Shown: positions 14,376 through 62,500 of the stretch, one piece after another | How the letters are laid out: each line of letters begins with the position of its first letter | Numbering within the stretch: the first letter of the stretch is position 1 | Source: Owenia fusiformis | Taxonomy: Eukaryota; Annelida; Polychaeta; Sabellida; Oweniidae | DNA length: 64,000 bases | NCBI GenBank assembly: GCA_903813345.2 | Contig: CAIIXF020000001.1 | Location: 46,767,885 to 46,831,884 of the forward strand | Reading direction: 5' to 3' | Made by a program: the position numbers and the translations under genes | The notes under the pieces: model-generated | Told to the model about the DNA's origin: nothing | The model's input: only the letters and a program-made list of their open reading frames with translations | Databases searched by the model: none

Positions 14376-16941
14376 TTACAACCAAGTTACACAGTAACAA
14401 TGTGAAGCAGGGCAGTTTCCAATGGCACAGTTGTCTATGCACCATTGGTCCATTCCAGGACTTGACGCATAAAGCTCGGTTGGATAACATCCAGACTCAA
14501 GAGCAGACGTAGTTCCTGATCCAGCTGTGGTTGTAGTTGAGGCAGCTGTGGAGGTAGTTAGGGCAGCTGTGGTTGTAGTTGGGGCAGCTGTGGTTGTAGT
14601 TGGGGCAGCTGTGGTTGTAGTTTGGACAGCTGTGGTTGTAGTTGGAGCAGTGGTTGTTGTCCAGGCAGTCGAAGTTGTATCAACTGTTGTAGTCGTACCA
14701 GTGGTAGCAACTGGGTCATCAAAACCTATGCTTATATCAGAGCAGCCGTAGAACTCCTCCTGTGGGCCACAACCAGTACACTGAGTACCATCAGGGTCAG
14801 TTCCCCAACTGTTTGCTAGTGACATGTAATCAAATATAAGTGATGATAACTGGATTAAACACCAGCGTTGTAAACTTGGGTCAGCTCCACTACCAGTGAA
14901 TACGAAATGAATGCCACAAGAAACTAAGATCAACTTCTAGACAAACACTCATATTTTACGTACGAATAGGCCAGAGCGGTCGGGATAATTTGTATGGCTG
15001 GACTGTCACGGTGACAGTGTCACCACATTTTAAGTGTTAATAGTAGGACTGACATCGTGTCTCTCCGGCATTCACATAACCTATCACTAGACTTGAGGCC
15101 AGCTACAAATGTATTTGAGGCCAGCTACATGAATGTATTTGTGACCAGCTACAAATGTATTTGTGGCCAGCTACAAATGTATTTAAGGCCAGCTACAAAT
15201 GTATTTGAGGCCAGCTACATATGTATTTGAGGCCAGCTACATATGTATTTGAGGCCAGCTACAAATGTATTTGAGGCCAGCTACAAATGTGTGAGGCCAG
15301 CTAAAAATGTATTTGGGGCCAGCTACAAATGTATTTGAGGCCAGCATCCATAACTTCAATGAACACAAGACAATGTAAGATGAAAATGGCCAATTTTGGC
15401 ACCAGTATGATAGAAACTAATTGTTCTGACATCAGGGACATACCTGTCTTGTATCTCCACTGAAGAACGCACTGAGAGCAGGATAACCCAGATGGCAGTT
15501 GGACAGACACCGTGTAATTCCTCTTCAAGTCATCAGGGACATACCACCTATATATATTTATAATCCCTCAACACCATCTGACCTTGTATTCGCGAATAGT
15601 ACTTGCCACTATTCTATTCATATTAAAATGAATTGGTCATAAAATAGTATCGTAGGTTAATCCGGTAGCCGACAGCCAAAAGTTGCATTCGCAAATACAT
15701 GCATTTTGTAATCCACCTATTTTCAGCTTAATAGTACCATTTGAAAAAGATCAGGGCCAGTGACGTCATTCTGGATGCTCAGGGGCTCTCTTCTGAATAC
15801 TAAAACTTTTTTTGTTCAGAGAAAGAAACTAACCTAGTGTCAGAGGTCCCAGCGATGGTTAAAAGGTTCTGGTTGAGACAATCGTGCGTGATGGTTCTGG
15901 TGACGTCGTTATTGACACAGAGACGATACTCGAAGAAACCTTTATGGTTGGCTGTCAGCTCAACAGTCACATCAAAGACGCTCCCCACCTTTGAAAATGT
16001 AAGTGTACATCATAAAGCAACGTGCCAAGAGAATATACTTTGGGATCACGCTGTTGTGGTTAATTCCAGTACCCGCCGAAGCATACCTCATAATTTGCGA
16101 CAATGATTCCATTAGCATAAGTTCCACCAGCTTCATTTGGCCACGGTCCGTCCCAGGGATCACCACACACTCCACACTTTCCGTCGTTCACGTTTTGTTG
16201 GTGCTAAAACAACATACAGTTCGTCAATACACGTATCCTACCTGATTTAAATGTGCTTCGCTGGCTAGAAAATTGAGCTTGAGTCGCTTATCTAATGCAC
16301 ATATCTTGAAGAAACAATGTTATTCACCCCGAATCCTCCACAGAACAGTTCATTGTCATTGTAATTAGGTGGGTTATCGTAGCCCCATCTAAATAGGGTT
16401 GATCGTCCCGAAGGCCACCACAATCTAAATTATAAGTTATAGCAAGGATGAAGAAGGTCCAAGAGTGTCCGATGGATTAGGAAAGGAATTTTCAAAAGAT
16501 TAAGAAAACTACATGGATTTCAGCTTATGCCTTGATTAAAGTTTACATGAAATTACAAAAAGTGGCGTGTCACTTTTCAATAATATAAACTCCTATAGAA
16601 ATACAATAATTTTTTAAATTGTTTAGTCACCTACATAACATAACATAATTAGCTCAAAGTTTGAATGGCCTAATATACGGGTGTCGAATACAGTCCTATT
16701 TGTTCTTACGGACAGCGGAGACTTCAACAATGCAATCGCAATGATGTAACAATCAATCATTCGATACCATCCAACCATCAAAAGCTTAAAACGACTCCGA
16801 ATAAGCACTTATTGATTCATGCCTCATATATAGGACACACGTTTTTATGACATATATGGTATCAAGTCCCTACCTTCCATGTCCTGCCACAGACACAACA
16901 AATATGGCAATGAGGCACACTAACACAACACGTATCTTCAT
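14376..16941 (-). CDS. AA15-type lytic polysaccharide monooxygenase, copy B
   Basis: The six exons are 16874-16941, 16328-16424, 16087-16203, 15834-15988, 15444-15547 and 14376-14815 (326 aa). Exons 2-5 match copy A exactly in length and phase, showing a tandem duplication. The signal peptide MKIRVVLVCLIAIFVVSVAG precedes the mature HGR. The second His-brace residue is in ELTANHKG, and FYGCSDISI is retained. The Thr-rich linker is longer than in copy A because a 21-bp unit encoding AAPTTTT-type repeats has expanded (about 14540-14640). The C-terminal six-Cys module is present and ends CYCVTWL. The intergenic gap to copy A is about 500 bp. All active-site residues appear intact, so both copies should be catalytically competent copper enzymes; substrate (chitin or cellulose) cannot be read from the sequence. 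AATAAA lies only about 15 bases past the stop. Confidence 0.92.
15094..15350. repeat. 22-bp tandem array in the last intron of LPMO copy B
   Basis: About eleven imperfect copies of GAGGCCAGCTACAAATGTATTT occur in the intron between exons 5 and 6. Variants include GTGACC, a four-base insert (CATGAATG) and shortened units. Confidence 0.9.
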
Positions 16942-20020: not shown

Positions 20021-23000
20021 TTAAATAATAGGATTGACTTTTCTATTTCGAACTATTCTGGGATTGATGCCTTGTCTCATAGATTTCATGGCCATAGCAC
20101 GATTGAAATGACGCTGTATTTTTGATGATTCGCCAAAATCTTCAAGGGTCGAATCAAGAGAGGTAAGAATTCCACAGAGCACTCCCATAACAAGAAAGAG
20201 AATGATGAACAGTGTATAATAAGTGACTGTACTATCAGGATGGGCTTGCATTTCTCGTAAATGTGCCAACGCAGGCTGAAAACTTGGATTCAGTTTCAAT
20301 GTGTGGGTGAAATGCAACGTTGCTTCATGAAAATGTCCATATGCCTTGAGGATTTCTCCGAGGGTAAAATGTTGGAGCCACGGATTCTGTTCTGCCGCTT
20401 GGTTGTCCAGTGATTCTCTCGTTAAAAAGATAGCATCTTCAAGATAGTGCAGGTTGAATAATACGCGTCCAAGGTTAAGAAGAACATCTGGATTATTGGG
20501 TTTCAGAGAGAGAGCTTTTCTAAAACATTCTATTGACAGTTGGGTTTGTCCTTTTATCCTCCAAAAGTTACCAATCTTGTTCAGGATTTGTGGTGACAGA
20601 GGCTTCTGAAAGTACAAAATGATATTGGTGGTATAACAAACCTACAGCTAAATGTATAAATGTCAAAGGATTTAGAGACATATATATCAATCCATGAAAA
20701 TTTGGGGAGTTGGGGGGGGGGGTTCACTTTTTGAGAAATTCCAAAGGGTTCACTTGTGACAATTTTGGTCTGAAAATGGCCAAAATCACTTAAAAAGTGC
20801 TAAGAATGGTGAAAAACTGCATGATTTTGAAAGATCTTTTGGCCAGGGGGGGGGGGCTTGCTCGAACCCATCGAAGCCCCCTGGCTATGGGCCTCATATC
20901 GATATGACAGCTTCATTTTTGTGAACTTTATTATACATTCATATTGTGCAGAGTGATTAGATTAAATATGGGACTCACCTCCTTCAGTGCCTTCTTCAGC
21001 TTGGATTCCAAGTAATTCATGTCAACTTCAGAATTTTTACTACCCTTTTTTCGAAATATCATGGCTACCTCCGGTTCAGGCATTAACGGATGTGAATCTC
21101 TACTGGCTATCCCTCTAAGGTGATCATACTTTGTAAAATTCACTGATTTTCCACAGTTTAGGGTGTGGTCAACACTGCTTAGTGAGGTTGTACTATGGAC
21201 AGTGGATTCTGCAGATACACTGGATGATGATATTTTTGGCTCTTGATCAGTTTTTTTAATGGATCTGAAAAAATGAGAAGTAATTTACGTATAATGACAT
21301 TGAAGTACATGTATTTATTCAACCTATTTGTAATTTATATTTTCATCTAAACTGTGTAGCTGCATTATTTTGTGAAGGTCGACCTTTTCAGATGTCTGCT
21401 GGTTGTAGAAATGAACCATTTGGTATTCATTTTGAGACTTATTAGCCTGGACATATGCCATAGCCAAGGGGTAGTTCAGTTTAAAAAAACAACCAAATGG
21501 GGGTTCAAATGTGATCCAAATCACTTGAAAAGTACTCAATATGGTGAAAAATTGCATGATTTTAAAGAATTTTTGGCGGAGGCCGGGAGGGGTTCGCTGA
21601 AACTCACCAACCCCCTGGTTTAGTGAGTCTCTAGCCAATAACTTGGCTAGAAATCATGGCATGTGGATCACCGTGTACTAATGGAAAATAAGATAAGAAT
21701 TAAATTATATGTTGTTTTTTTTAAAATCATTATGAGAATAGTCCATCAATTGAAATTGAAACGAACACTGTCCTTTGTGAGATATTGCATTCTTTCATCC
21801 AGCTTTTGTCTAAAATCAAAATCACAGAGTCTGTCATTTTCTAAAACAGTTCTGAAATGAATGTCAGACATTGATTATAACTGGTTGTAAATTCAAATAG
21901 CAATCCAAAAGATGTGAACTAGTATTGATCACTTCTTGCTTGACATTTTGAAATTTTTTATTTAAGTAATATCTCGCGTAAGTGAAAAAATGGTGGCTGA
22001 ATTTTGTAATCACGACATCATGACTCCATGATGGCAGAATATTGCAGTATTAAATTGCAGCCGGTGATGAAAATGCTCTAAACTGTCTCTTAAAAAATAA
22101 ATAAATAACAACCGATGTAGACAGATATATGCACTACATATGAAGATCAATGAAAATATGTCTACTTTATTTAAGTTCATAAAAAGCAACTGTTCGTAAG
22201 ACTATAAGAGGTAGTGTAAAGAATAATAACTAGATTTTGGAAATTGAACGAAGTTCAATTTCAGACTCCAGATCTAGACTTTTTTTAGCCGAGTCATCCA
22301 GAATAAGCCGTGTCATCCAGAATAAGCTGAGTCATCTAGAAAGAGATGGATAAATAAAATAGGAAGGTAGGATAGGATAGAATAGGAAAGAATGATAGGA
22401 TAGAATAAGAAAGAAGGATAGGATAGAATAGAATAGGAAGAAAAGATAGGATAGGATAGGAAGGATAGGAAGGAAAAGATATGAAGAAAGGATAGAAAGG
22501 AAGGATAGGATAAGATCAGATAGGAAGGATGGATGAATTTTTCAACATTTTCTTCTCTACTCTTGACTTTCTATCAGGATACCATCAGATCGATTTTCCG
22601 AAATTTCAAAACGCCATAACTTCCGAGCCGGGAGTCGGATCGAAATTCGATTGAAAAATTCGGATTCCTGACAAAATTCTACCCCTAATTCATAACTCAT
22701 ACGTTAAATTTGGAGATTTTTTATTTTGACCTACTTTTCGGACACGCCATAACTTCCGAACCGGTAGTGGGATCGAAATTTGGTTTGCAGACTCGGATTC
22801 CTGACAGAATTCTACCCTTAAGTCATAACTCATATATTAAATTTGGAGAACTTTTTATTTTGACCTACTTTTTCGGACACCATATCTCAAAAGTGGGTCA
22901 AAATACTTTCTGACGGCAAAATGCTAACACTATTAGCATATTCTTGGCAACATGTATACACAATTTCGAAGAATATAATTAGAGTGTAGTGTCAGAATCG

Positions 23001-28211: not shown

Positions 28212-31200
28212 ATGTCGGCGGATTATGAATCGGTCAGTTGCGTAAAAAATGAGGTTTTTGTCTACAAGATACCCCCAAGACCGTCAAACAGAGGATATAA
28301 GTGAGTAGCCTGACAATCTTTTCTAATGTAGACGTATTTCCTTATCACACGAGTGCAAAGTCTTTGAGAAAAAGGTTTCCAAAATGAACTATAATTTTTA
28401 GATCGATTTTCATTTTGATTTCGTTTTCTGATTTCCCAACCAAATATGTCAATTTTCAAAGAGGATGCTGTTACTCTTCCCAGGCATAAGTAACTTACGT
28501 TAACTTAGTCTATCAATACAATCTATGTTTATATAGCATACAGATCAGAGATGATACCTTATGCTCACAAAGCAACAACATGAAATTTTTCTTTTTTGAT
28601 TGAATTTGAAGCAACTCCCCTCACAAGTCTTGTGCCTTAGACCCAGTCTATTCCAAGTGTATCTGACCTCTGGATTATAGAAGGTATTGGTTTGAGCTTA
28701 CTCGAGTCTCAAGCCTGATACATGACCTGTATACAGCAGTATAAAACATGCAGGGATTTATCTGTGGACGAAGGTCACGATATAGTGGCCTTAGAAGAAG
28801 ATAAGTTTGAGCAAGAAATAACACAAGTCTCCGAATAAAGATACAGTCCATACATGTATTGTATGTACAGCTTCTTCGGGGATGTATCATGAGTTACCTA
28901 TGTCAGAGGCTGCTGATTGATTCTGATAGACAGCCTTTACACGCATACAATAATCTGATATATACATGTACATGTAATTGTATCGCCTGAAATTGAAATA
29001 CTGAATTGAGGTGCCTACTTAAGATCTCTGAATGTTCCTAACATCAGTGGCTTTGCTTATGAAACTATTGAAGGTTTCAGGTGTGTCTGTGCTGATCAAG
29101 ACTTCTTTTTATCGGTTGAGGTTGATATTTTCTACAAGAAATTAAAATAGCGGTGTTAACGGAAAAAAACGAATTGTCCGGAGATTTTTGAATGAATGTT
29201 AACAAATAGCTGCATTTCAGGGTATACACATTTTTCATATTTCATATTCATCATCAATTTGATCCACTTTAAATGAGATTGGTCTATTTATTGACACTTA
29301 CAGAGACTGAAGAAAGGTCAGGTCTTTGTAGAATTTCTGACTGACCAATTTATCTAAAAAGTATTGACTTTTTTTATGAAAAAAAATAATCAAAGGACCA
29401 AGTGTAATATTATTTCAAATTACAAACATACAATGTTGAGATATGGCTTCTACATTTTGGACTGTGCATTTGTGCATTTTTATTTCATGGAAACAAAAGT
29501 TCAGTAGTAACTAATGTGGCCAATGTAAAGTATTAATGCCTGGTTCAGTTAGATATGTTTGTATGCTGGTTTTTCAGAGCTGCAGATTGGAGTCTAGATA
29601 AGCCAGATTGGAAGGGAAGGTTGCGTGTAGTTGCCAAAGGAAAAGCATTAGCCATAAAGTTAGAAGACAAAGTATCAGGTAACTTTGAGGCCTACAGACC
29701 ATTTCTACTTACTATGTTAATAGTTGGATTTACACGAGAGCCCTTAGGTGTCTTGGGTAAAAATATTGAACTAATTCACCTGCCTTTCTTCCATAATCCT
29801 AAAGCTTTTAAAGAGGCTCTATGCCATAGGATGGTACAATCAGGATAGCTCCTCATATACCCATCTACTTTCAAAGAAGAAGTCCCAGATCTACCTCTTT
29901 CAGTGTTAATTTTGCGATTGTGCTGGCCGATCTAATTATTTTTGAAGAAATTAATTCAACCTGAAGTTTGAATATTCCGGGAAAGTCCTCCTGTTATCTG
30001 ATTGGTTGTTGAATTTGTTTACCATACACCTGATTGGCTCCCTGTTTCAAGGTGCTGGTGGGCGCTTGTGTGACTCAATGGGGATTCCCCTCGATAGCCG
30101 AGTAATCGATTGTGTTTAATTCTGGAGTTTGGTTGTTCTGTTGATTATTTCCGATATTTCGGCAACAATATACTCAAGAGTTATTCTCAAGATATATCCA
30201 TGATATGTGAGATATTATATGAGCAATAACAATAGTTATTTTTGTGAAACCGATGCATTCTTTAGCACAAAGTATAGAAGTGGGAACGGAATAGCTATGT
30301 TGACTGAACCGTCTTTAAACCAGTACTGAACTGCTTTTTCATTCATTTTACATGTATACCTATGTACATATCTCTAAGACGTTTTAGAAAAACAGGTGTA
30401 ATCTCAATTATATTTCGTAAGAGGTCTTGAAAAAGGTGGTGTAAACTCAACATAATTTTTCAAAAACGTTTTAGTCAAGATGTCTTGGAATGTTGCATGT
30501 AGTGTAAATTGGGCTAATGTGACGCTTGTTTATCCTTTATTTCAAAATAAAAATCAGTCTATATTCTCATGTTTATTCGTGTCCGACATTCTCTTCATTA
30601 GTTCCTTCAGGGACGTATTGTAAAAATTTAAAAATATGCAAATCTGTAGCAAAATCAAATTTGAATAATGAATAATGAACAGGGAGGAGCAATGTCTTAC
30701 AATCATATTATCATACTTCATTGTTGTTTTAGAATATGCTCCAAATGCTTTAATATTTATTTTCCCAGGTGAACTATTTGCAAAATGCCCAGTCGAAACA
30801 TATCCAGGTCCAGCAGTTGAGGCAGTCACAGACTCGAGCCGTTACTTTGTCATCAGGATCCTAAATGACAATGGCCAATCAGCTTCCATAGGGATTGGTT
30901 TCCAGGATCGGGGAGATTCATTTGATCTAAATGTGGCACTTCAGGAGCATTTTAAGTAAGTGCAGACTGCAGGTTATGTATAGAAATAAGGATTAAGTCA
31001 TGGTTTGACTCCTAAACATACAAACAATACTGATGAATAAATTAAGGTGCCCATTAAAGGTGCAACAATTCATCAACCAGTGTCAAAATATATTTAAGTT
31101 TGGATATTTCATCCAAGACTAACATAAATTTTTATTATCTACAAAGAAACCCTCTGGATGAACATTATTTCAGCTGATATATCTCTTGAAACATGGTGAA

Positions 31201-39377: not shown

Positions 39378-42300
39378 ATGTGCTCTAGAGTCTGCGACTA
39401 CATGATGAGACAAACTACAGCTACTCTCGTCCTAAATGAAAGAACATTTTTCCGATATCGACAGATATATTGGATGAGACAGTTCGCTTTGAGAACAACG
39501 CAGCTTGTTTCAACGTATGAATCCACCGTATTCAATGCAAGTTGCCCTGTCATCGATTTCGTGTCTATTTCAGGATCTTCAAACTCTTCTACACCATGTC
39601 GGCACAAACGATTCACGAGTATTCATGGGTTTTTAGCATTAATACTGTGTCCTGCTCTAGTTGTGTTCGCTGTCACAGCTCTCAACCTTTTAGAAGATGC
39701 CAGTCTGCTATCCGATATACAAAAGGTATGAATGGGAAATCTGCAAATTCGCATGTTGGGGTTTACAGCCGTGACAAAACGAATTCCAGGAATACTCTCG
39801 TTTACATTACTTTGCCTCGCCCATAATTGATGCATATTGTTTTCCGTAAACCATTATTTTAAAGTGAAGATTCTTATGAGAAAGTGAAGAAAGAAATCTT
39901 AAGTTGTGGATAAACTTTAAGTACTGGGTTTTAGGATAAACAATAGCCGATGGCTGATAGGCAAGAAGCTATTAGTTGTCATAAGACCCGATGCGAATGG
40001 TTTATCTAACTTAAATCCCACACTGACTCTTATGAAAGGTAAATGGTCCATGGTCGAGTTTTAGGAAAAGTTGATTTATTTTGTAACTAACAGTGTAACT
40101 AAACAGTTTCTTTTGTAACTAACAAGTAACAAGGACTATCAAAACAACGTTCATGGGCTCTAATTACAAGAGAAATAGACCAGGAAACAAGTCTTATTCA
40201 AGACAATGAATATTCTGGACATTCGATGCTTTTGTATTGACATATATTATTAAAATAACGTTTCACAATGTCATTTCAATTAACTGCTTTACATATTTCT
40301 AGGTCATTCGTTTCGTTCATGAGGAAGAACAGATCCATTTGTTCATCTCTAATCTCCAAGAGGAAAGGTATACTTCATTCATCTATATCAACAAAGATAT
40401 TGCGATTCTAACAGAACAGGACGGTAGCAGGCTTGCGGAGGTATATTCTCACACAGATGGCTCAATAAGACAGTTATCGACAAATGCCCATCCAAATATC
40501 GATGATGTAAAAAACAAGAATAATGTGTTGAATAATATCACAGCGTTGCGCCTTGATATACACATGCATCGGATGAATTTTTTGAACAATTGCCTGAATA
40601 GTACTGGTTCCAATCACGATTGCAGATTTTACACTGATCTCATTCATAATCTAACTGTAGAACTTAATTCAAAGAGTTCGTTAAGTTATAGTCACTTTCC
40701 ATGGAAAATACAAAGCAGAATTTTAAAGATACAGGTGCGCATCGAATTATGTAGTCGAGAAACCCATGCAGCAACGATGTTGGGTAAAGATCATACACAG
40801 TCGTTCCTTGAAACAGTATCACCTCAATCCAAGGCTATCTCATATAATCCGGAACTTCATTTACTTCGTCTAAGCATGCTCAATCAGATCATGTCCAAAC
40901 AAAATAAATCACATAACAAATCAACTTTGACAGTTAAGCAGCGGACATTGATTGATGAACTGAAACAATATTCACAATCATTGCGAAAGGAACAAGAACA
41001 GTGTTATATGGAACTCAGAGCGACTCTCAAGAGAGATGAAACATATCGGACATTGACAATTGGTGTTACTGGAGTAATCTTATGCATAACAACATTGCTT
41101 ATTATCGCCCAAGTGATGACTTTAAGGAATTCGTTACGTACTGCGAAGATACTAAAAACAGCGGCTGTTGTCACTCTTAGAGAGATCGCAAGTACCCGTG
41201 AAAAAGTATTTTCGGTTATGAACCACGTTCTTCCAAAAGAAGTCAGGGAAGAATTCAACTCAACCATAGTAAGTTTACACTGGCGTAATGTCGTTTCTTT
41301 AGTTTTAACAATTCATTTCAAGTATTCCCTTTTCAAAACCAAACACCCAAATTGTCTCTTTAAAAGATTGACTGTCGAATTAAAATAAAACTGGTAATGC
41401 TAATTGCAGGAACAGAAAGGGAGACATGACGCCAATATGACAGTTTTAACAGTTGAACTTCCAAACTTCTCTGAAATTTTGAAACAGAACTCATGCCACC
41501 AAGTTATAGATCTAATGGGATCCATATTTACCCTACTTGACGAAAGGGTCAGTTTGTTTGATGCTTATAGGATAGAAAGTCCGCGGAACACATATGCTGT
41601 GACATCCTGTAAGTTCACCATTTATTGTTCACTGATTTTTGGCTTTAAATTTATATTACGAAGTTGACTCTTAGCAGATACAAAAAATATAAAATGAGAA
41701 ATAATATTCATACAATAATTCAATCAATAATAAAATGAAATAATGAAATAAAAAGGCCCCCAGCTAAAACAGCAAAATGAAAAATATGTACTTCGTAATC
41801 ATAGATAACCTTCAACAAGACAAGCTAACAAGATAATTGGAGCACTGGATTGAACAATAAAATATATCTATTTTACACTTCAGCTCTTCAAGGTCAAACA
41901 GATCATAGAAATGCTCAGGAAATTGCAGATCTCTCTCTGGATTTCATGGTGGTAACATCAGATCTTGAGGTCCCACATTCAGGAAAAGTCAATCTAAAGC
42001 TTGTTATACATACAGGTAAATCAACTTGCAGTCGGAAAGTCGCAATTTGATCATTGAATACATTTTGCTTGGGAGGGGGCGGGGCGGGGCGGGGTGGTTT
42101 CTTTTTCTGCTCGATCATAGTTTGGGATATTTGAGTTTGTTTTCCGTATGACCGAGTGATCTCTCTGAATCACACATCCAAATATTATGGCTCCATCACA
42201 AACAGTTTTTAGATGTCTCTTTTTTAGTAACATCTGGGTCAGTACCACAAACAACTAAATTTGAATTTAAAACTAAAGTGCCTCTGCTTCCGAAACATTT

Positions 42301-47532: not shown

Positions 47533-50500
47533 GATACGAATGTGCGAATCAATTAAATGATGATCCGGTATATTATATAGATAAAGTTCGATTGTCTTGT
47601 AGAATTAAACAGATCACAATTATGTCTACACCTGACCGATTTGTGCAATGTCTGTTAATGTTATGGCAAATATCTGATGGATTATCCGAACAGCAACAGA
47701 TAGGTATGATTATTGTTAAGTTATTGTTAAGAAATGCTTATTTTGTCACTATTTTCGCAAAATTCAGATATATATTCGTGTGAGTATGCAAGGGAAATGC
47801 TTCGATCAACCAATACATTGATTTAAGACGTAAACGTATATAATAAATAATTATAAATGATGATTTATACACGCCTAATCATCGAGAACGTATAGTGACA
47901 AAATATACCGTCGTACACTTAAGGTGTATGGTGTCACTATTAACTGATTTGAAGCGAAAACTATGATGTAGGTTTGATGGTACAGATTAACAGGTAAAGG
48001 TGATTTTTTACCCCTTGTTGAATGCTATTTTATTTTATGAAAGTGTGGAGATCTATACTAGCTAATCGAAGATGCCTTTCAAAATCCAGTTTATGCTATA
48101 TCTGGAAAGTGCTGAAGTTCAAAGGTTCTAGGTTAAATAAAGTTGAAGTAATACTGTTATTGTTCAGTTTCACTTTGAAATGATGAATGATTTAATTTGT
48201 ATTCTCTGTAAAACGTACGTGCTTGTTTTGTTTTGGCGTATGCTTTCAATGTTTATTTTTATAATTGTTTAAACGGGGGCGACATAAAGACAGTATTCAA
48301 CGTTTATAAACCACTATTACTTCAATGATACACATTAATTAGCTTTCTTGCAATATGTGATTTGAGTACCACTTCTAAGGCATCTAAGCACCGCCGTTTA
48401 ATAGTAACTACTCACATTTAGATTAATATATCGACTATGTAAGAGGGGAAACTATCGCAAATTAATTCACGTACAAACCAATAACAATATATAAGGAAAT
48501 CTTCAAAGAGTGTTTACCAAATGAAGCCTGACAGTTGGACGCGCTGGGTAAGGTACAACGCAAGGGTGATGCAAATTGAGCTAACTGCATGGTGTTTTCG
48601 TCTGTACTTTAACATAATAAGATACACTTTTATGCATTTTAATAATCTTAAGAAGTTGACAGAAAGATCTGTACTAACTAGTCGAAATATGCTATATCTG
48701 AAAAGTGTGGAGGTTCAATATAGTTCAATCAAGTTGAATTAGTAATGTTGTGATTGTTTCGTTTCAGTTTTAAATGAATCTGACCCCCCTGCCCCGTAGT
48801 ATTATGAAAAATACGTTGTCTACATTAGGGTTAACTGTGAATTCAGATATGTTAGTTCAATGGGACAACGTACATCGAGATGACATCGTACACTTATGAT
48901 ATTTTATTTTTATTATTCTAGCAAAAACGTGACTATATATTAAATTTTCAAACGACATTAATTATGTAACTTAGGGAAACATATTCTCATAAAAATAATC
49001 GACACTCCTAGGCGACAGGGGAAAAGATGACCAAAGGAAATGTGAAAAAACCAACATTTTCCAACCGATTATTGTTGGTGGGTAGATTTACTGCGAAAAA
49101 ATCGAGTACTGCTCGAAAATCTTTTAACGTTATTAGAAAAGTAAATGTCTTCCAAATCGAATACGTACGAAATTAAACATGAAATCCCTTAAGTATTCCT
49201 CAGATTAATCCCAGTTTTTGCTTCATATCAGTTAGAATAGTGACACCGTACTAAAGTGTACGACGGCGTGTTTTGTCACTGTACGTTGTCGATGGTTAGG
49301 CGCGTTATAAACCAATTATAATTGATAAAATGATACAGGTTTACATAGCATAGATTCATGTGTCTACTACATAGGAATACGATCGAGTGATACACATAAC
49401 ATGATTGTGACAATCGAATAGATAAAAAACGACCCAAAACGTTATTATACAAGGTGAATGTAAAATTGTCAAGATGGTTGAAACAAGAAGTACATGTATT
49501 TTTTATCACATTTTGTCCATAAAAATGTATGTCTTTCAGTTTGACCTTGTTTCAATTTTGTTAGTTCAACGTATCATTATATCATATATCACCAAGGTTA
49601 GAAAAAGAAACACTATTTCAGAAACATCACTAACATAAACTACAAAGGAGTTTAAGCATTCTTTTTCTTTTTGAAAACTTTTTCTAAAAATTGGATACAG
49701 AAAAAATGTTTTGAGAAAAAATGTTTTTTTGTCTGGGGTGGCAGTTGGTTTCTGTTGGTTGGCGTCTGTAACAAATTTTGGCAACTTCAATAACCTAAAA
49801 AATATACTGTTTAGATTGACTTAAATGTTTTCAAAATCATCTACAAGTTTTCAGGAGTTAAAATCTGACTTTAGATTTGAGATTTGATCTTCAATGACCT
49901 TCTCAAGGTCAAAAAAGGTCAAAAAGGTCTTTTTTCAACTTGCATCAAATGGACCAATTGTTTTTCAAAATCATCTACCTTCAATGAACTTTTCAAGGTC
50001 AAAAAGGTATTTATTCAACTTGCTTTAAATTGACCAATTTTTTTTCAAATCATCTACAAGTTCTCAAAAGTTCAAATCTGACTAAGATTGAACTCATAAT
50101 TAATATTGTGAGCAACTAGGTGGTGATATTATGCCTTGTTAATGCCTTGTTTTGTTGAAGGTATATTGTAAAATAAACTAGATTTCGAACGTAATGAAAT
50201 ATGGCTTCGTTTTTAGGGTCTGGTTGTGCAAGTCAGCACGTCATAGAATTATCCGTTACTCCCAGTGCATCTCTGGATCTCACAACGTACCTTTCAGAAG
50301 AAACTTGTGTCAATCCCTTCGGCACATGTACATCAATTGAGCCAAGTATTGCAACATTGCGTTTATCTCAAAATGGGCAAAAAGAGACGGATCCTTTTGC
50401 GAAGAAAAAAATATCAGCATGTTTTGATCCACGTGACGGATGGAAATGGACGTACATTTCCTCAACCACACTCGGACACGATTTGTTTTCTTTGGTGTCC

Positions 50501-53500
50501 GTAGATGAAACCATGCTTGTATTCAAAATTGGAATACTTGATAATGAAGGTAAGCTATGTTTAAAGTTACTTTACACGACTAATGTACACTGTAATCATG
50601 GGCTCTACACTGATAGAGCCCATGCTGTAATAGAGGAGTGTGAAAAAGAAGAACCAACAGATTTTCATGTAGCAATCCGTCAGAAATTAAAATCAGATTG
50701 TATATCAATATGAAATTCTGATTATCGGTTTCCTAACTTTATTAATTGTAATTGGCGGATATTTAAGGATCAATAGCTACGATTTCTACAACAGAAGAAA
50801 TATCAGATGAACGAACAAACAGACCAACGCCAACTATTACTCCAAAAATGACAAGCACACCAGGTAGAACAGCACTTTCGTTCTTTACGATTCTAGAAGC
50901 ATCCGCAGTTGGGATGGACGTCACTCTTTTATGACTTGTAAATCATAACAATATTTTGTAAACTAATTAGTCACACCTAACTCATTTATATCTTGGATTA
51001 CAAAGGTATCAGGTTTTCATTGATTGAATATTTTCATTTGATTGAAAATCAAACTGGTAAAATAGTATGACATGTCTTTTTAGAATCAATTTATGTCCGA
51101 AAGAAACGAATTTACTTAAATGACTTTACAATCGGCAGAATATTGATAAACAGCTAACAAAATTTCAATGACAACATTTTCATTTTCCTATTGAATAAGC
51201 TAATTTGCTAAATAGTTAAATATTCTATTAGATCTTTATTAACGATTAAAGTAATAGGTTGTCTATAAAACTTCTCCATGGACATTTGCATATAGGAAAT
51301 TGTATTAGTTAATCACAAAATTGCTATTATTTATAATTATTTAGAAATAACAATTAATGGTTAAAAAGTGTTATTAGTATTACTTAAATAACAAATATTC
51401 TATTCATTAATCCGTCCAAGGCTGAAGGCAAACATAATATATAAAGGTTATGTACTGGGAGGTTCTGGATATAGGGTTTATCAAGAAGGAGATATGCAAT
51501 TATAACTGGAGGGCCGAGGGTAGATATGCATCATCTCGCGAGGGATGAACCCCATTTCCAAACCGACCGTAGATAACTGCTTTATCCTATACCCAGTTGA
51601 GTTTTCTTGAATATTTTTTTATCCATTTCTTCAAGATTTTATCAATTTTTTTTTGAATTACCGGAAGTGGGAAGATATGCCCAGGAGCGGGAAATATGGA
51701 GTTTCTGGATATCGAAACCTCAAAATCAGGATACAAGATATATCTTACCAATTTATCTTCCTAAAACTTACCGTTTGCATTCATTCGACTTCACTTCTTG
51801 AAAGAGAGCTTGTCTTCAACTTCAACTAGTTTATAACTAGACTCTGCGCGCAGGGTACCTAAAAAACTAACTAAAAAATTCTACCGGACATAGGATAAAT
51901 AGAATTATGCCTCTGATATTTTTAATTATCTACTTATCTGGTTTCTGTAATTCGATTCCGAAGATGGGAAATTACATCTTCACCTCTTTTTGTCTTGGTT
52001 ATTAGGGTTGTGTACTGGGAGGTTTTGGATACAGGGATAAATCCTGTATCCAAAACCGACCGTACATAACATATGTATTTCATACCTACTGAGGTTCTAG
52101 GTACATCATACCTTATAAAGTTCTAAAATTCCAAAACATACTTAAGGTACGCGTTTTCTTGGTCTTAAAGTTTGCGAGATTTGCAAAAAATTGGAAAAAA
52201 GACATTTTGTTCTAGCGACAGTGTGCTCCTTGGAGAGGCAAATTAAGATAACTGTTGGAATAGGTGAGAAGGTAGAACTCAATGAATACTTACGTGATGA
52301 ATACTGCGCTAAGAGTCAACAGTCGTGCTCACCAGTCAGACCTACAAGAGGGAACGTGTATGCTACAAATAGAGGCAAAAAGCAGAACGTCTTCAGTCCA
52401 AAAACCTGGAATTGTTTCAACCCATCGCGTAACAAATGGTTGTATGTGCCCAACGACTTGCCAGGAAATGACACATTTTCAGTAGTGTCGAGAAATAACA
52501 CAAAACTGACAGTTCACATTATGATTGAAGGTATGTACCCGACTACCTGAGACTAACATATCTTTTTTTGCATACCCATGCATGTTTCTTTATATATCAC
52601 TATTTGCGCGAATGTGTGGCGGTTGCAATTTAGGGATAAGTAACTTTGTCCCAGTTATTTTGCCAACGTATTTTAGAGAAAGTGTGCCAATTGAGAAAGA
52701 AAATAAACCTAACTGTTAGAATTGGCGAGGAATTAGAAATCACAGATTACATACAAGCAGATTATTGTGCCAAAATCCAACAAACATGCTTACCGGTTCA
52801 ACCTACACGTGGAAAAGTGCATGCCAAATATAGAGGCAAGAATATCAGATTCAACGTCTTCAATCCCAAAACCTGGAATTGCTTTAATCCAATGCGTTAT
52901 AAATGGTTGTATGTGCCCAATGACTCGCCAGGAAATGACACATTTTCAACAGTGTCAAGAGATAACACAAAACTGACATTATATATTGTGATCGAAAGAA
53001 GAAAACGTATGTATGAAAGTTTTGCGAACATTTTAACATAAACGTAGAAATTGTGAAATTATTTTGTGATGGAAATGCCTTATTGAAGACAGATAATATA
53101 CATTGGTTGTAGAAAGGACATGTGTAACAAAGACTTTGATTGAGTTAAATGCTACTATTGGGAGGACATTAGATATCACATCGTATCTAAAAAATGGATT
53201 TTGCACAACGACGACAGCAGTTTCGAATGAATGTTTGCCTGTCAAACCTTCAGTGGGAACTGTGAAAGGTAAAAGAAGGTACACCCGAAGAGGAACATTT
53301 GAACCATTTGTGACGAAAACCTGCTTCAAACCGAATATCTACAGATGGACGTATGTTGCTTCCGAGTCTACATCGCACAAGGAAGACTCGTTCTCTGTTA
53401 TTTTAGCTAACAATGAAAAATTGGATTTCAAAATAACCATGAAAGTAGAGCCATGGTTCTTTCCTATTTTTGCGGATGAAGAAGGCCGTAACTTCCGTAA

Positions 53501-56500
53501 GTGCTTGTTATTTAACGTGGTAATTTAGTTCAATAATCGAGTTTCAGGAGTTGTTATAAATTTCCATGGTAGAGTTGAGTATGGTTTGGCAACTGTACCA
53601 TATTTCATAAAATTGATCAATTGAATAAAACAGCTACTGTAGTTACTGAGGAAACCGTAGATGTCGGCTGCGACCACCATAACAAAACGCCCAAAGGTAT
53701 AATTCATGATAAAAATGAAGTGGTTTAATGTGTAATGCGACTATGAAAATACAGCTGAATGTTCGAACATGCTTTGTGTGCTTTTCAAAAGGGTTTGAAA
53801 CCAGAGCATTTTTCATTTTCTGCTAGTTTTCTGAATATTTACATCTAAAAACACAATGTTTGATATTTGATGTCATAAGAATAGTAAACATAGACCCATT
53901 ACATACATTCTAAAACATAAGTTGTGAAGATTGGATAAAAAATGCCAAAGTTAGAGCAGTTTTAGTGAAAAATTCTTTGACAGATATATCTGTAGCTCTG
54001 GGTTCCAAATGGATTTTATTTGAGACAGATATATATCCGTCATTCTGGGTATTCAAGAGGTTAAGCGACATCTGGAGTTCTAAAAGGATACCCACAGGCC
54101 CCTTTTATCAGCAAAGCGATTGGTGTTGCTAGAGGTTTCGTGTTTTACGTTTATTCATTTGTATGAATGACATTTTTCTGGCTTATCATATGCTTATTTT
54201 TCAAAATATAGGGCAAAGAAATTTCGAGCCTAAAATGCATTAAAAGTAGTGTTTCGACTGATCTAGTACTATTTAGTGTATTGCATGGCTCATAGTGTAT
54301 GATATATATTCAAGGTTTCTAGCCATGCATGTATTCTTATTAGATTTAGAAAGCAGAGCCAAATTTATACATTTTTATAATCAAACTTTACACAAAAAAT
54401 CGTTCATGGACTCATCTTCAGACTAACTTAACTAGCAGAGTATTTCAAGGGGAGGAATTACCAAATCCAAATCAAGACTTTTGACGTCAAAATACTCCCG
54501 AAACCGTTACATATTTGAGTCCTGTACATATCTTTTATCGTGTTGTTCCCTGATGTTTTCCAATCATCTCCGATCCGCATCTTTCGGTCCCTTACCCTAC
54601 TATCACACCAAACTAGTTCTCACTACGTTCTCGAAAACGGGCTTAAACTGTGCACGAACGGATTTGACGTACTAAGAACCAACTAAGAACCATTTGGGAT
54701 CTGTTTACAAACTTCATGAAACTACTAGAACGAGTAGGTCCTCCAGAACTTAGAGCATGCTCAAAATTTTCTGGTGATCGTCAAAACGTTGCCGAATGGG
54801 TTTTAAACTGTGTGCGAACTGAATGAACGTATATACAACGTTCTACGGTCTGTTTACGAACTTCATGGACTTTCCCGGACGGGGAATGTGATTTAGAATC
54901 GATTCAAAATTCGATGGCGACCATGCCGTTCTGTAATCAGGTCATGATGACCTTCTAGACTAAGGGACGGTTTATACTACGTTGCACACCGACATGGTGC
55001 GACCTGAACGAACTGCGAATAAGATGGACGTATTGAAGACTGTTTATGAACGAAGTAGCTAATTATTTTAGACATATATCCCGACCGCAGCCAGATTGAG
55101 CCCGTTTTACGACATTTTCGTAGGACTAACAAGAACGGCTAAGAACTAGTTTGGTGTGATAGGGGGGTTAAAAAGGCAATTGTAATCGTATTCATATCCG
55201 GGTGAGGAATGGTCATTGAAGTACCACCGATAACATGGGATATGTTTATATCGTTATTATTTGAAGCATTTTGAAATTTAAAATTTCAATTACAACTCTA
55301 CATTAAATACTCTTGATAACATCACAAAAATACTAAATTGTATTGCAGAAAACAACTGCCAGGTAACAGAAGTTGTATATCTAAATGTAACAGCTACAAA
55401 AGCAATAGGGCTTACCAAGTATATGGAAAAGGAACGATGTACGGGTACTCACGGTTTATGCTCTGCAAGGAAGCCGTCACAAGGAGCTCTGCGAGTGAAA
55501 GGTTCCGATCCATTTAAGATGTCTAATCTAGGAAACTGTTGGAACGCAACACGCCTTAAATGGACTTATACGTCAATGAATGATAGGGATGGTCAGGATG
55601 AATTTTCTATTGTGTCACTTGGTAACACTGAACGAAAATTCGTAATATCCATAATCAAAGGTAAGATGTTTATCTCCGTCTACACTGATTTCTGACTTGG
55701 TTATGAAAACGTGAGTTATGCTACTGACGAGGAGATCAGGAGGGCTGGAGCAAAATAAAATTTTATTTATGAGGACGTTCTATTGTGATTTTTATTTTAT
55801 TTTATTGCTTTTTCATTTCAGAAAGCACCTGTGTGTTAAACGATGTGGTATATTTGAATGTAACTGCTACAAAAACATTAGACATAACAGAATATTTGGG
55901 AACTGAATATTGTACGGGTGTTCAGAATGCATGCTCTGCAACAGAACCGCTAAAGGGAGATTTGAATGTGAGAAAAAACGTAAATCGATTAAATCCATTC
56001 GAGATTACTGGCTGTTTTAATCCCAAAAGCGGCTACAAATGGACGTACACGTCTCTGTTTGATACTAGTGGACAAGACGTGTTTTCCGTTGTATCAAAGA
56101 CTGGCACAATACTTACATTTAACATATCTATCTCCAAAGGTAACTTTCTCATGTAATCATATACATAAAACATTATTACCTATATGACAAGTAAATTGTA
56201 CTTGGCACATGGCGTCTTTTACTGGCACGAATGCATGTGGTGTATATATCTACCTTATATCACGTACCAATCAAAACTATGCTTGTCTAGGCTTGTATAA
56301 TAGCTAAGCCACAAAAATCCATTGTTTTATCCACATTGAGAACCATCATTCAACAATATATCACAGATCAGAACTACTGAAATGTGAAAATTAGTAAGAA
56401 TTTTTCTTCTTAAGTCAACATACCAGGGGCGGATCCAGGATTTTGTGTTATCTGGGGGGGGGGGTGTTTGATAATAACCGTGAGCGAAGCTTAAGGGGAC

Positions 56501-59500
56501 CGCGTGAGTGGGCGCAGCGACCGAGTGCGAGAATAGGGAGGTCTGGGGTCCCCCAGAAAATTGAACATCATTTGGTGCATTTTGACCAATTTCAGAGCGT
56601 AGGTCCAATTCCCGGGTCTGATTTCAGCAAAACGCAATTGCGCTATTCTGACTTTTTAGGGGGCCCACGCCCCCGTCTATATCCGCTAGTGCATACTACT
56701 GTTTATAAGATATACTAGATATAGTAGTATAATATAGATAATGCTGCTGTAAAACGGAGCCGAGTCAAATGTGTTCATTTTGGCCCGTACAACGTCTGGT
56801 ATCCCGGCTGGTATCGAATATTCAATAATTATTAGGTGTTAGGGTTGACATTCGTTCAAATACATACAGTATTATATATTTCAGATTGTATTCTCCAAAA
56901 GGGGGAATCAAAACGCGTGACTGTACATGTGCTAGGTGAGTTCATACTGAAAGAACTAACACCCGATGCAGTATGCACCAAAGTACAAACAACAAGAACT
57001 TGTCGAATCAAAACACCAGAAATGGGGAAATTAACGACTTCACTGACAACAACTACAATCGACCCTTATAGAAACAAGGGGTGTTACAGTGCTGATGGAA
57101 CTTGGACTTACAAAGCTAAGCAAAATCCCGGCAGAGACAGATTTTCTTTTGTATCACCTGACTGTTGCCATAGTGTTGAATATGTCGTCAATGTGATTGA
57201 GTTGAATGGTAGGAGTTTTGAACTTTTATATGATCATATTAGTATTCAGTAGTGGGTATTAGGTACCCTGCGTGCAGAGTCTAGTTAAACTACCATTCGA
57301 AGCTCTCTTTTAACAAGTGAAGTCAATCGAATGCAAAGGGTAGGTATAAGGTACAGCCATTGCGTCTGTGCAACAAGATGGCCTTCCTTCTGGTAGCAAA
57401 TTTTCTACATTTTGTTTTGTCCATTTAAACACATTCTTGGACGATTTTCTCCGGCCATCATCGAAGGCGTATATGCATGCAGGTATCGCATCACTATGCA
57501 GTGTGCGAGCCGTGTTACCCGCATTGGTTTCTTTTATTTTACTTCCAGTAGCTTGGTTATATTTTATCATGGAGCCTGTACATTTGAGGCAAATTCTTGA
57601 TTGGCTCGTAGATAACTGCACTTGCAAAATGGTTCATTGTTTATTTGCAGATAAGAATTCTGTTTGTGGATTAAAAGATAAAGAATTTAAAGGTATAGAA
57701 TGTAGAAATGTATACTCCAGACAGTGTCCAAATACATATAGATGCGTTAAGAGAAAGGCGTGTTGTAGATACAGTGATGTACCAGCCTGCGAAACAATTC
57801 TTAATGAGAATTACGGAAATGAAACTGTACCATGGGCTTGTCGTGGAGGAAACAGTAAACGCTGTCCAGAAGGCTTTTCATGCTACACACACCCCATGAA
57901 TGTGTATACAATGTGCTGCAAAATCAGTGAGTTTTTACCCGTATAATATTTGCCCATTTGAAGTATATTTTTTTTAATTTTTTTTTTCAAAATCAAAACA
58001 TATACATTTAATCAAGAATACAAAAGTTAAGTAAGGTGTCATAATATAAAATATAAATTTTCAGTAAGTACATAAACCTGCAGTAATCTCACATCTATAA
58101 GATGTAAAAAATAAAATAAACCTATAAAGATGTAAAGATGTGAAAAAAGTATATCTTTTTAAATATAAATGTTATGGAATTGGTGGACAGTTTTTCAATA
58201 ACATAAAATTGGTGTACTAAACAAATCATCAATCTTGACTTAAAACAATCGTTGAAAATAATATAGTTTAGTTTAGTTTATTATTTATTAAAGTGTCACA
58301 GGCCTATTATTTTACATAATTATACGTTCAATTATTCAAAAGCCCCAAGCCAACAATGGCTTATGAGACACTGTCCATCTCAGAAATATTGCTAATAAAA
58401 TTATTGTTTTTGAATGAAAAAAATATTAAAGACCGACAATCAGTCAATAACTAGAATGTCGAATAATCCACTCATGCTAAGAAGTCTTATTTATGATACA
58501 TTTAGGCAATGAGAGTCCATGATCCAAATATAACTTTTAATATCCATGACATTTTACCACAAGTATATCAACTCAGCCGGCTATTGCAAAATTGTTTGTT
58601 GAATCTCACTCACATAATGTTCTTTAAAGTCCAATTAAGCGTGTGAGTATTGACCTAAATTAGGTTACTAGATTTTATCATAAGTCCACTGCAATGCTTG
58701 TTTCATGTCCAAGGCTTGAATGTAGGATGGCCCATTACCCAAATAAATTCATGTAATCCTGGAGCTCTTGGCCTCAATGTTATTGCTCTGGTGTGGCCAG
58801 ATTTTACTGAATCTCTGCATATTCCTCAAAGTATATTCCAATTCTAGCTGTTTTCTGGTCTTTTGCTGCTCCACATATACGTTGTTGTATTCCTTAGAGT
58901 ATCTTAATTTCGCTTTTGACTTCAATATACGTGCTTTGTCCGCGGGAGATTTCAACGTAACCAGTACAATACCAGCACTATCATGCCTTTTTGGTAGTCT
59001 TTTGACATCAATGGGGCACACATCTATCGGGCCATCATCACATACAATTTCGGACAGTACGTTGTTTACCATAGTAGAATCCAATATTGCTGAAGATTCC
59101 GGCAGATTCTTTAAGACAATTACAAGTTCATTTGCTGAACTTTCATTCGAGGTATAACAAGGTTTCTCAAATCCATCAATACGGTATTTCAATTTCTTGA
59201 TTTCAGCAGATACTGCATTTACATGTTGTAATATTTCAGCTTTTTGTTGTTCCAATTTAGTCTCAAAATAACTCACCAACTCAGCTCGTTGAAGATCAAT
59301 CTGTTTGAGGACTCCAATATTCTGATCCATGATTCTGTTCATTTGTTGTTGTAATGTTTGGATCGTTGCACCCAATGCCATTATTGATGCTGAAGTATTT
59401 GAATCCATTTTAGGTCCATCTGTATTAAATCCAAATCGTTTTCCAATGTCAGCCATGTTTGATTTTTCAGTGTTTTCCTTTGTACCAGCTGAACTTTCTG

Positions 59501-62500
59501 AAGTCTGTTTTTGACTGTCCTGTTTACACTTTTGCGATTTCTTGAGCTTACCCATTCTCTTTGTATATTCCAATTGAACGTTGATACAGTTATAAATCCA
59601 TAAAGTTTACAAAAACATCAAAATTGCACAAAATAGTAGCACAGAATTATTCACGTGTCATGTTGGTACGGTGGCCTATATAATCTATAATATTACCTTT
59701 CAGCGCAGTGTACCGATAAGGTAGGAAAGACACATAGGCCCGAGGATGGAGATTTCAAAGATCCAATTGATAAGTGTAACAATTGCAAATGTCTGAAGAA
59801 CGGACAAATCCAATGCACTGACAAGCAGGCGTGTAAACAATGCAAAGTCCCAAATATGAAAGCACTTCAACCGCGAGGCTATACCTACACTATAAATGAT
59901 GGTTGTGATGAGTGCGAATGCATTTCGTCTCCTGTTACCAACTGCAAAGGACCTTGTGGTGAATATTCTTTGTTTTAAATTTAATTTACTTGGGACTCGA
60001 GATAACTAATGAATATTCTACGTTTTTAATTAGATTTTCGAGGGACTCCGAAAATATTGTTTTTAGCGAGTCGTAAGATTAAGATAACTGGTTTATCGAT
60101 ACTGCTTTTAACATTTTATTTCATCAAGAGCTTGAAGGTGCCAAAGTAACGGAATGGAGTGGAGATTCACCTTGCACAGAGGAGTATGGATTATCAGTGA
60201 AGATTAAGCATTGTATTAACACAAATCTAGACGATACAACTAAAACATGCAGGATAACAAAGACTGAAACTAAAGAGTGCAATCCGCTCCTTATGCCTAG
60301 TAAGCCATTTTATGATTTACACTAATAGTTTAGCGTGCAATTTGAAATCCAAAGATTTCATGGAAAAAAAGATATTTAGCAGAAATTATAATTTGGTATA
60401 TCTATCATAGCTCGGTGTTTTGTAGACAATTAATACAAGTTTACGATATTTTCCCTCGCAAATCCCATTATTAAGAGTGAAGTTTTAAAATATTTATACT
60501 TATAGAGACAGGAATACGCAAAACAGAAGCAGCCCCATTGGTGATAGGAGGCAAAAAGGTCAGTCCTGCTAGAAACTATCGATGGATGGCTCGATTGTCC
60601 CACATCGAATCGCCGCATGGATTGTTGTGTGGGGGATCAGTGATATCAAGACTCCATGTACTTACTGCTGCCCATTGTATCTGTTCATACTGTGAAGGTT
60701 GTGTTGTAAAAGACAATCAATTGGTTCCTTTTTTTAAAGGGTAATGTATCATTGTCTCATTAATAGAACTTAACGATCGTCATCAATACATTATACATGT
60801 CATGTACACATGGGTAATACGTGTAAGGCACCCCCTCGTATATTCTCTATGGTTTTAACATAGATAATATATAAGAGAAGAATGTGACTTACTCCCCGTC
60901 CGTGTATGTACAACTGTAGAACGCCGTCAGAATGAATATATATTTGTTATGAAGATCGCTGATGTTATAAAGGGGTGATATGTAATTTCAAGGTGTGGAA
61001 TCCTTGTTACTGTTGGTGATCACTCTATATCGACGACTAATGAGGATGTGGAACAAGTACGAAAGTCTTTTGTAATGCAAATACACAGGAATTATAACAG
61101 TACTTCGTTTGATAATGACATAGCCATTCTAACCCTGGAGCATCCATTGATTTTCAACGATGACGTACAGCCTGTTTTATTGCCTAAAATACCACCTGGG
61201 ATACTAAAGTTATCCAAGAGATATTGTACAGTAGTAGGTTGGGGTTTGACTGGCCCCGGAGGAATATGTAAGAAAAAACTCTAGTTCCTATTTCTTTTAG
61301 TATATTGCATAGTAAAGTAATACTAGATAAAGTGTATATTCAAATATTTTTTTACTATAACTCTCGGATGAAAACGTTTTACTGAATTGAACTTTGGCTT
61401 CGCATTCTTTTCAAATGGGTGAATGACCCGCTATCAAGATGTATAAAATTATTCAATATCACATGAAATTTATATCACACCATTTTGTATTTTCGAATGA
61501 ATTTTATTTTCTCTGCCTCATAGCCAAAACCTACCAAAACCAACAGTTATGTTACACCACACATCATGATACTTCCCAAATAAGGTATTGACTAGATGGA
61601 CGCCTAATATGCTGATTTGCATTATTTTCTTACTCATTAGATTGAAATTCATGATGGTTCATAAAGTTGGCTCGACCATGTAATTAATGGTACATGATCC
61701 CAGTTACATACACTGTAGACCCTTTTGAATTTTGTATTTCAAAGCTGACGAGTTGCAGGAAGCAGGATTGCTTCTCGACGAAGAATGCAGCCGGGCGAGT
61801 ATCGTAACAACAGAGAACATGATATGTGCAAACATCGAACGTTCAGGAGCAGATTCGTGTTATGTGAGTAAAAACTATTCAATCAATGTCTTGAAAGTAA
61901 AACAGATCAATGTAGATACCATGCTTATATTCTTAATATAGCTAGTTGTATAATTCAATCAACGCATTAATCGACATAATATAGTAACTATTGGTTCATG
62001 TATGTTTTATTTATTTAATAGGGTGATTCTGGCGGGGGATTATCCTGCCGTCTATTTGGACCCAAGTACCCATGGGCCATATTTGGAATCGTTAGCACTG
62101 GGAGTAGACGCTGTGGAGCGAATGGTGGAGGAGCTTACACTAAAGTTCAAAACTACGTGGATTGGATAGAAAAACATATATCTAGTAAGTGAGATCGACA
62201 GTCAGATGTATGAGTATTATTTCGGATAGTATCTACGCCAAATGCAGTGACAAATTTGGAAACTCACGGGTAAAGACATGGTGTGGAAAGAAATAATTTT
62301 TGAAAATCCATCAATTTTACAAATGTATCTCAAAATTAAATAATGATATTGTATTGTAATTATTGAAACATGAATAAAGTCTGATTTTTATTATTCAATT
62401 TAGCCGATGGGTCATGGGGCGAATGGAGTACGTTTACACCTTGCTCTCAACTTGGACAGAGGTCCCGTTCGCGTGTTTGTACAGACCCGTTACCAATTAG

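Follow-up and report, generated by a model that had tools for sequence, protein, structure and literature searches.

A seven-copy, four-cysteine domain with a possible remote likeness to Big_9 in a putative mosaic protease gene of Owenia fusiformis

In modular animal serine proteases such as MASPs, factor C, corin and polyserases, the trypsin domain lies behind an array of N-terminal modules, and the N-terminal modules of modular proteases hold or steer the enzyme. The cysteine of a PICLP-type motif is the usual tether of the protease to its N-terminal chain, and symmetric phase 1-1 exons are a hallmark of shuffled extracellular modules. A gene comparable with these was found in the annelid Owenia fusiformis, in a stretch of 64,000 nucleotides of contig CAIIXF020000001.1 (assembly GCA_903813345.2, positions 46,767,885 to 46,831,884; hereafter the window). 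In this gene, seven tandem copies (D1-D7) of a domain with four cysteines precede a trypsin-like protease domain. Like the modular proteases above, it encodes an intact trypsin-fold domain behind repeated cysteine-containing modules on symmetric exons; unlike them, its repeated module is unnamed, and a TSP1-like exon lies downstream of the protease. The reading favoured here, which is given slightly less than an even chance, is that the module is an unnamed, probably disulfide-bearing immunoglobulin (Ig)-like domain, remotely related to the bacterial family Big_9 (PF17963), and that its seven copies form the N-terminal targeting arm of a mosaic protease. The same gene contains a pacifastin-like stretch. 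Ancestral-type pacifastin domains are described as often embedded in multidomain, matrix-associated proteins (PMC13388995). The Owenia stretch resembles these in belonging to a multidomain, probably extracellular protein, and differs from them in scoring below the Pfam cut-off (Table 1) and in adjoining a protease domain.

The domain array and its gene

The original prediction, made from the DNA letters alone, held that seven exons encode copies of a single domain, ~105 residues long, in which four cysteines are invariant. Alignment of the copies and leave-one-out profiles, in which six copies recovered the seventh with E-values of 5.3e-35 to 2.7e-11 (Z=1000), confirm this for the span 50217-57208. 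A six-frame profile search of the window returned seven open reading frames (ORFs) at E ≤ 6.7e-33, and its next-best match had E = 3. Eleven alignment columns are invariant (C4, C31, C38, P43, P60, C69, W78, Y80, D89, F91 and S92 in D1 numbering); the LDIT-Y-L element of the predicted signature is absent from D7. Protein identity is 64% between D2 and D3, 48% between D5 and D6, and 17-39% in the remaining 19 pairs. Nonsynonymous and synonymous divergence (dN/dS) were 0.221/0.756 for D2/D3 and 0.435/0.894 for D5/D6, and dN was lower than dS in all 10 pairs with a computable dS; for the other 11 of 21 pairs, no dS was calculated because of saturation. The array was most likely multiplied through exon duplication.

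The gene model comprises 15 exons, with splice sites chosen by frame, and is open for 1323 residues up to a stop codon. AG precedes all 15 exons, GT follows each of the first 14, and the phases are compatible. The encoded order is D1-D7, a Lustrin-type exon, a pacifastin-like exon, a TSP1-like exon, the trypsin domain and a C-terminal TSP1-like exon; the ten exons upstream of trypsin are in phase 1 at both ends, with lengths that are multiples of three. That the product is a protease is borne out by a Trypsin (PF00089) match above the cut-off (E 3.4e-44, 151.7 bits). Its catalytic His, Asp and Ser and a D-S-C-x-G-D-S stretch align with those of enteropeptidase, which suggests trypsin-like specificity. 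The residue preceding VIGG is Leu instead of Lys/Arg, and the cysteine of the enteropeptidase PICLP motif is replaced (PVLLP). The enzyme may thus depart from textbook proteases in its activation and tethering, and, unlike in enteropeptidase, the customary link to the N-terminal chain may be missing. The trypsin domain also contains a cysteine-rich insert downstream of TAAHC (60506-60740 and 60993-61267).

The protein is probably extracellular or secreted, to judge by its module types. A signal-peptide exon was sought upstream of the array: a strict scan of 44.3-50.2 kb gave zero candidates, which counts against the reading favoured here, and relaxing the scan (44.0-50.2 kb) yielded two candidates, weak and overlapping (47622 and 47658), which were judged implausible. 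Because nothing convincing came from these scans, we infer the secretion stated in the original prediction from the modules. The lack of a first exon in the scans of 44.0-50.2 kb would also fit a decayed or misjoined gene, whose protease model would not be a single protein. So would the derivation of the model from DNA alone and the unusual activation site with Leu preceding VIGG. However, the 15 exons are open and in phase up to the stop codon, the catalytic residues are intact, and dN is below dS between the closest copies; decay or misjoining is considered very improbable. On the minus strand, a 285-residue ORF (58749-59606) lies within the intron that separates the Lustrin-type exon from the pacifastin-like one; it has no convincing Pfam match, and we take it to resemble LINE (long interspersed nuclear element) ORF1.

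Table 1. Exons of the gene model, with positions in the window
Feature	Position	Strand	Remarks
Exon D1, domain copy 1	50217..50549	+	Phase 1-1, 333 nt
Exon D2, domain copy 2	52216..52530	+	Phase 1-1, 315 nt; alternative in-phase acceptor possible at 52222
Exon D3, domain copy 3	52677..53006	+	Phase 1-1, 330 nt; nearest relative D2
Exon D4, domain copy 4 and C-terminal linker	53113..53496	+	Phase 1-1, 384 nt
Exon D5, domain copy 5	55349..55660	+	Phase 1-1, 312 nt
Exon D6, domain copy 6	55822..56139	+	Phase 1-1, 318 nt
Exon D7, domain copy 7	56885..57208	+	Phase 1-1, 324 nt; most divergent copy; extra CC pair; acceptor read from DNA
Cysteine-rich exon	57651..57926	+	Second half Lustrin_cystein (PF14625), 27.9 bits, just above the cut-off of 27
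Cysteine-rich exon with pacifastin-like stretch	59704..59958	+	Pacifastin_I (PF05375), 20.5 bits, below the cut-off of 27.9
Cysteine-containing exon, TSP1-like by eye	60129..60299	+	No separate Pfam match at E up to 0.1
Trypsin exon 1	60506..60740	+	VIGG, TAAHC
Trypsin exon 2	60993..61267	+	DNDIAIL
Trypsin exon 3	61745..61863	+	Ends in ...GADSCY
Trypsin exon 4	62022..62184	+	GDSGGG
C-terminal TSP1-like exon with stop codon	62404..62567	+	TSP_1 (PF00090), 17.1 bits, below the cut-off of 21.6

Predicted fold and searches for a named family

The fold of D1 was modelled with AlphaFold2 from an alignment of the seven copies only. The best of five models had a predicted local distance difference test score (pLDDT) of 87.1 and a predicted template modelling (pTM) score of 0.81, with pLDDT ranging from 76.9 to 87.1 over the five. 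It is all-beta except for two short helical turns, with strands at residues 6-14, 19-21, 47-52, 76-81, 87-95 and 99-107, so that a compact domain, as the original prediction supposed, is also what AlphaFold predicts (pLDDT 87). Among the 50 PDB matches listed by Foldseek for this model, most are Ig-like sandwiches (CD244, NCAM, Fabs, intimin and cohesin), with template modelling (TM) scores of at most 0.40. The best E-value in Foldseek was an unconvincing 0.004. The predicted fold of D1 appears compact and Ig-like in flavour, without a firm classification.

All seven copies were scanned against Pfam (E up to 10), NCBIfam (E up to 1) and PHROGs. Pfam, where HMMER filters drop most weaker matches, listed a match for two of the seven copies, both far below the cut-off: DUF5727 (PF18997) on D5 (12.9 bits, E 0.076, residues 5-56, cut-off 26.5) and BTBD8_C on D7 (11.3 bits, cut-off 27). 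NCBIfam gave one family, under its cut-off, for one of the seven copies (E 0.12), and PHROGs gave four families for one copy each (best E 0.092), all unconvincing. When PDB sequences were searched with the domain profile, four matches were returned at E up to 10, none of them convincing; the best (E 0.016, positions 66-103), to flagellin hook IN of entry 6xi1, was partial and was treated as chance. The best match of D7 alone to PDB sequences had E 0.57. With D3, D4, D6 and D7 as queries (four of the seven copies), no relatives were found in viral contigs. A KWTY-type DNA pattern led to a single locus (L343), which the domain profile failed to match at E up to 10. Across 343 loci, the top matches of the profile were repeat-rich frames of L069, L109 and L011 (whole-sequence E 0.0013 to 0.033); these were not counted as support, their single domains having independent E-values above 6 and the loci having been selected for Big_9. 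A literature search for Big_9 in metazoa found no papers.

Within Pfam, NCBIfam, PHROGs and the PDB sequences, as they were searched, the claim of an unnamed domain stands; by the Pfam cut-off its sequence does not qualify as a Big_9 member. The copies could alternatively belong to an already described animal family, missed by its Pfam model through lineage divergence, and the DUF5727 match to D5 offers a candidate. This match reached less than half of the cut-off in one copy of seven, and about 0.5 such matches are expected by chance per seven queries. No DUF5727 match was listed for the other six copies, and a literature search for the word DUF5727 found no paper. The DUF5727 identity was rejected as chance, and a described family of this kind is considered improbable.

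Comparison with the Big_9 family

The original prediction also proposed a likeness to bacterial Ig/cadherin-like repeats. Two sets of Big_9 domains were used for the comparison. The first was collected through a GTDSFTYTV-type DNA pattern (at least 117 stretches), with 787 domain matches, 564 of them non-redundant; it is a biased sample, since the selecting motif is part of the match itself. The second comprised 40 Pfam-located Big_9 domains, hand-picked among the matches listed of 368 counted. Seven of these 40 contain the exact motif GTD[ST]F[TV]Y, and their genomes were themselves reached through the motif, so that the set is less biased, not unbiased. Seven other Ig-like families, 176 domains in total, were taken from eight bacterial genomes; two of 19 Cadherin_3 loci and three of 30 PKD_4 loci, all under 55 residues, were dropped.

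In profile-profile comparison with hhalign, Big_9 gave the lowest P of the eight Ig-like families. P was 0.0021 with the full motif-selected set (score 20.35, above 60 permuted decoys at 17.7), 2.2e-4 to 2.8e-3 with five samples of 30 domains, and 3e-4 to 7e-4 with three samples of 28. With the 40 Pfam-located domains it was 0.0088, and the score of 18.6 exceeded those of all 200 permutations (maximum 15.2); the 33 domains without the exact motif still gave P 0.011, with the alignment at PxxG. The values for the other families were 0.039 (Cadherin), 0.055 (Cadherin_3), 0.062 (He_PIG), 0.17 (PKD_4), 0.29 (CARDB), 0.41 (Calx-beta) and 0.75 (fn3). The Cadherin_3/CSPG repeat (PF16184) resembles the domain in a weak in-register alignment (42-103 to 42-105, score 15.1 versus a permutation maximum of 11.9); unlike Big_9, none of its 17 domains exceeded 4 bits with the hidden Markov model (HMM) of the window domain, and its profile similarity is lower. 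PxxG and W-T-Y..G-x-D-x-F align to Big_9 in the same order, with weak statistics and imperfect controls.

The domain HMM scored above 4 bits in 10 of the 40 Pfam-located Big_9 domains and in 34% of the 564 motif-selected ones, compared with 0.2% of 600 shuffles of the former, 0.4% of shuffles of the latter, and 0/176 domains of the other seven families. The N-terminal part of the domain, without the W-T-Y...F-S half, slightly prefers Big_9 by way of the PxxG motif. It scored above 2 bits in 4/40 and 9.6% of the 564 Big_9 domains, versus 0.7% and 1.2% of their respective shuffles and two of the 176 domains from other families; no Pfam-located Big_9 domain exceeded 4 bits. Of the 59 Big_9 matches to this part, 56 extend over PxxG, each of them falling on a PxxG. 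In the reverse direction, D7 scored above all 2000 shuffles with one Big_9 HMM, and 11 of 2000 were as high with the other; for D5 and D6, 12 to 26 of 2000 shuffles scored as high.

For the structural comparison, a bacterial Big_9 domain was modelled with 46 relatives (pLDDT 97.6; 46 of the 47 alignment rows came from the motif-selected set). Its strands are B 20-22, C 37-41, D 47-51, E 58-62, F 70-77 and G 83-90. With strand letters assigned by the present authors, the spacing between strand starts in the D1 and Big_9 models is 28 and 27 from B to D, 11 and 12 from E to F, and 12 and 13 from F to G, whereas it is 29 versus 11 from D to E. The D1 model fits a strand order as in Big_9 with ~18 residues inserted ahead of strand E, the fourth cysteine among them; cysteines two and three lie at its irregular strand C. 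Overall, the domain shares with Big_9 its length class, its occurrence in tandem arrays and, going by the weak alignments and the predicted strands, a PxxG turn before strand D, an aromatic strand E, a GxDxF strand F and these B-D, E-F and F-G spacings. It differs from the bacterial family in its four cysteines, the ~18 extra D-E residues, the irregular strand C and the absence of a Pfam score, and in its setting, an animal protease gene in which each copy occupies its own phase 1-1 exon.

Several observations weigh against this kinship. Big_9 (cut-off 23.6 bits) was not listed by Pfam for any of the seven copies at E up to 10. No Foldseek match of the D1 model reached E ≤ 0.001 (0/1265 in PDB and 0/972 in BFVD), and its strand C is irregular. 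The Big_9 model matched viral structures in BFVD with a best E of 1.2e-5 (TM 0.83), yet its best viral matches are not among the 50 listed for D1, and only two of 50 listed targets are common to both. The hhalign probabilities with all Big_9 sets are low (3.9-45%, at P 2e-4 to 0.011), the default alignments cover just 15-36 columns, mostly in the last third, and the signal is weaker in the 40-domain than in the motif-selected set. The global score of 3.84 with the 40 domains lies inside the background (permutations: mean 2.0, standard deviation 1.7, maximum 7.1). Cadherin, Cadherin_3 and He_PIG also score slightly above their own 16 permutations. Against PKD_4, one of the permuted profiles scored 21.0, above the 18.6 of the less biased Big_9 set, so that scores near 20 can be chance. 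In the nine sets, 0.2-1.3% of shuffles score above 4 bits; a shuffled CARDB domain reached 14.2 bits, more than any real Big_9 domain (best 13.2). Matches of the N-terminal part in other sets land on PxxG in 13 of 17 cases, so that landing alone proves little, and the Big_9 HMMs do not favour D1 or D4.

These results could potentially be explained by an animal beta-sandwich without Big_9 ancestry, in which WTY...GxDxFS and PxxG would be convergent strand and turn motifs. This alternative is regarded as serious, if somewhat doubtful. The weak hhalign probabilities, the lack of a Foldseek match of the D1 model to the viral proteins best matched by the Big_9 model, an N-terminal signal that is mainly one PxxG turn on which other sets land too, and the permuted and shuffled controls with equal scores all favour it. 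However, the signals of seven further beta-sandwich families, comparable in length and source, are clearly weaker, and both motifs and the strand spacing occur in the same order as in Big_9. Kinship with Big_9 appears from the sequence comparisons to be the best-supported origin, albeit an unproven one. The proposed likeness to bacterial repeats stands in part, with the lowest P of eight families and a PxxG beyond the original motif, but the match is weak, some controls score as high and Foldseek gives nothing at E ≤ 0.001. It is possible to likely that the domain is an Ig-like sandwich that gained two disulfides.

If the domain does descend from Big_9, an ancestral Big_9/cadherin-like (tandem-95) beta-sandwich would have been altered by an extra stretch of ~18 residues between strands D and E, and four cysteines, probably paired as two disulfides, would have been added to it. 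The phase 1-1 exon bearing the domain was probably multiplied by exon duplication into seven tandem copies, and in the gene model the array makes up the N-terminal arm of a protease of mosaic, trypsin-like type. By analogy with other modular proteases and from the architecture only, its most likely role is that of an adhesive or targeting arm, which may hold or steer the enzyme to a ligand, a surface or a matrix. The protease might be released or switched on through cleavage before VIGG. A broader view is considered rather unlikely: that the domain represents an undescribed animal family, descended from Big_9, which traded compact turns for two disulfides and an insert, and which was spread by exon shuffling and now serves proteases, and perhaps further extracellular proteins, as an arm that binds ligands. 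Were the domain to recur in other animals, it would constitute a missing domain-library entry, with bacterial adhesion repeats as its likely relatives. It would then also show by example how a Big_9-like fold was fitted to the extracellular milieu of animals, with its many disulfides, and distributed through exon shuffling, and unannotated parts of invertebrate mosaic proteases could be named and tested for binding.

Neighbouring genes in the window

The exon-intron structure and the animal-type modules of the window are consistent with animal DNA. Two LPMO_10-like stretches on the minus strand (12461-12841 and 15301-15567; 20.4 and 18.9 bits, cut-off 23) apparently belong to two neighbouring genes, and beside them lie Thr-rich, cysteine-containing frames on the same strand without a convincing Pfam match (11759-12127 and 14376-14936). 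A minus-strand exon of a TPR-repeat protein (20021-20641; TPR_2 E 4.4e-14) presumably belongs to a TTC17-like gene. On the plus strand, two exons of a DUF1681 gene, which we take to be of the NECAP type, are found at 29537-29848 and 30672-30959 (32.4 and 87.4 bits). A long plus-strand ORF at 40303-41388 has a sub-threshold match to the nitrate- and nitrite-sensing domain NIT (20.4 versus 24.9 bits) and, at a guess, possibly encodes a receptor cyclase. A tandem repeat occupies 7598-8309, where several frames are open on both strands.

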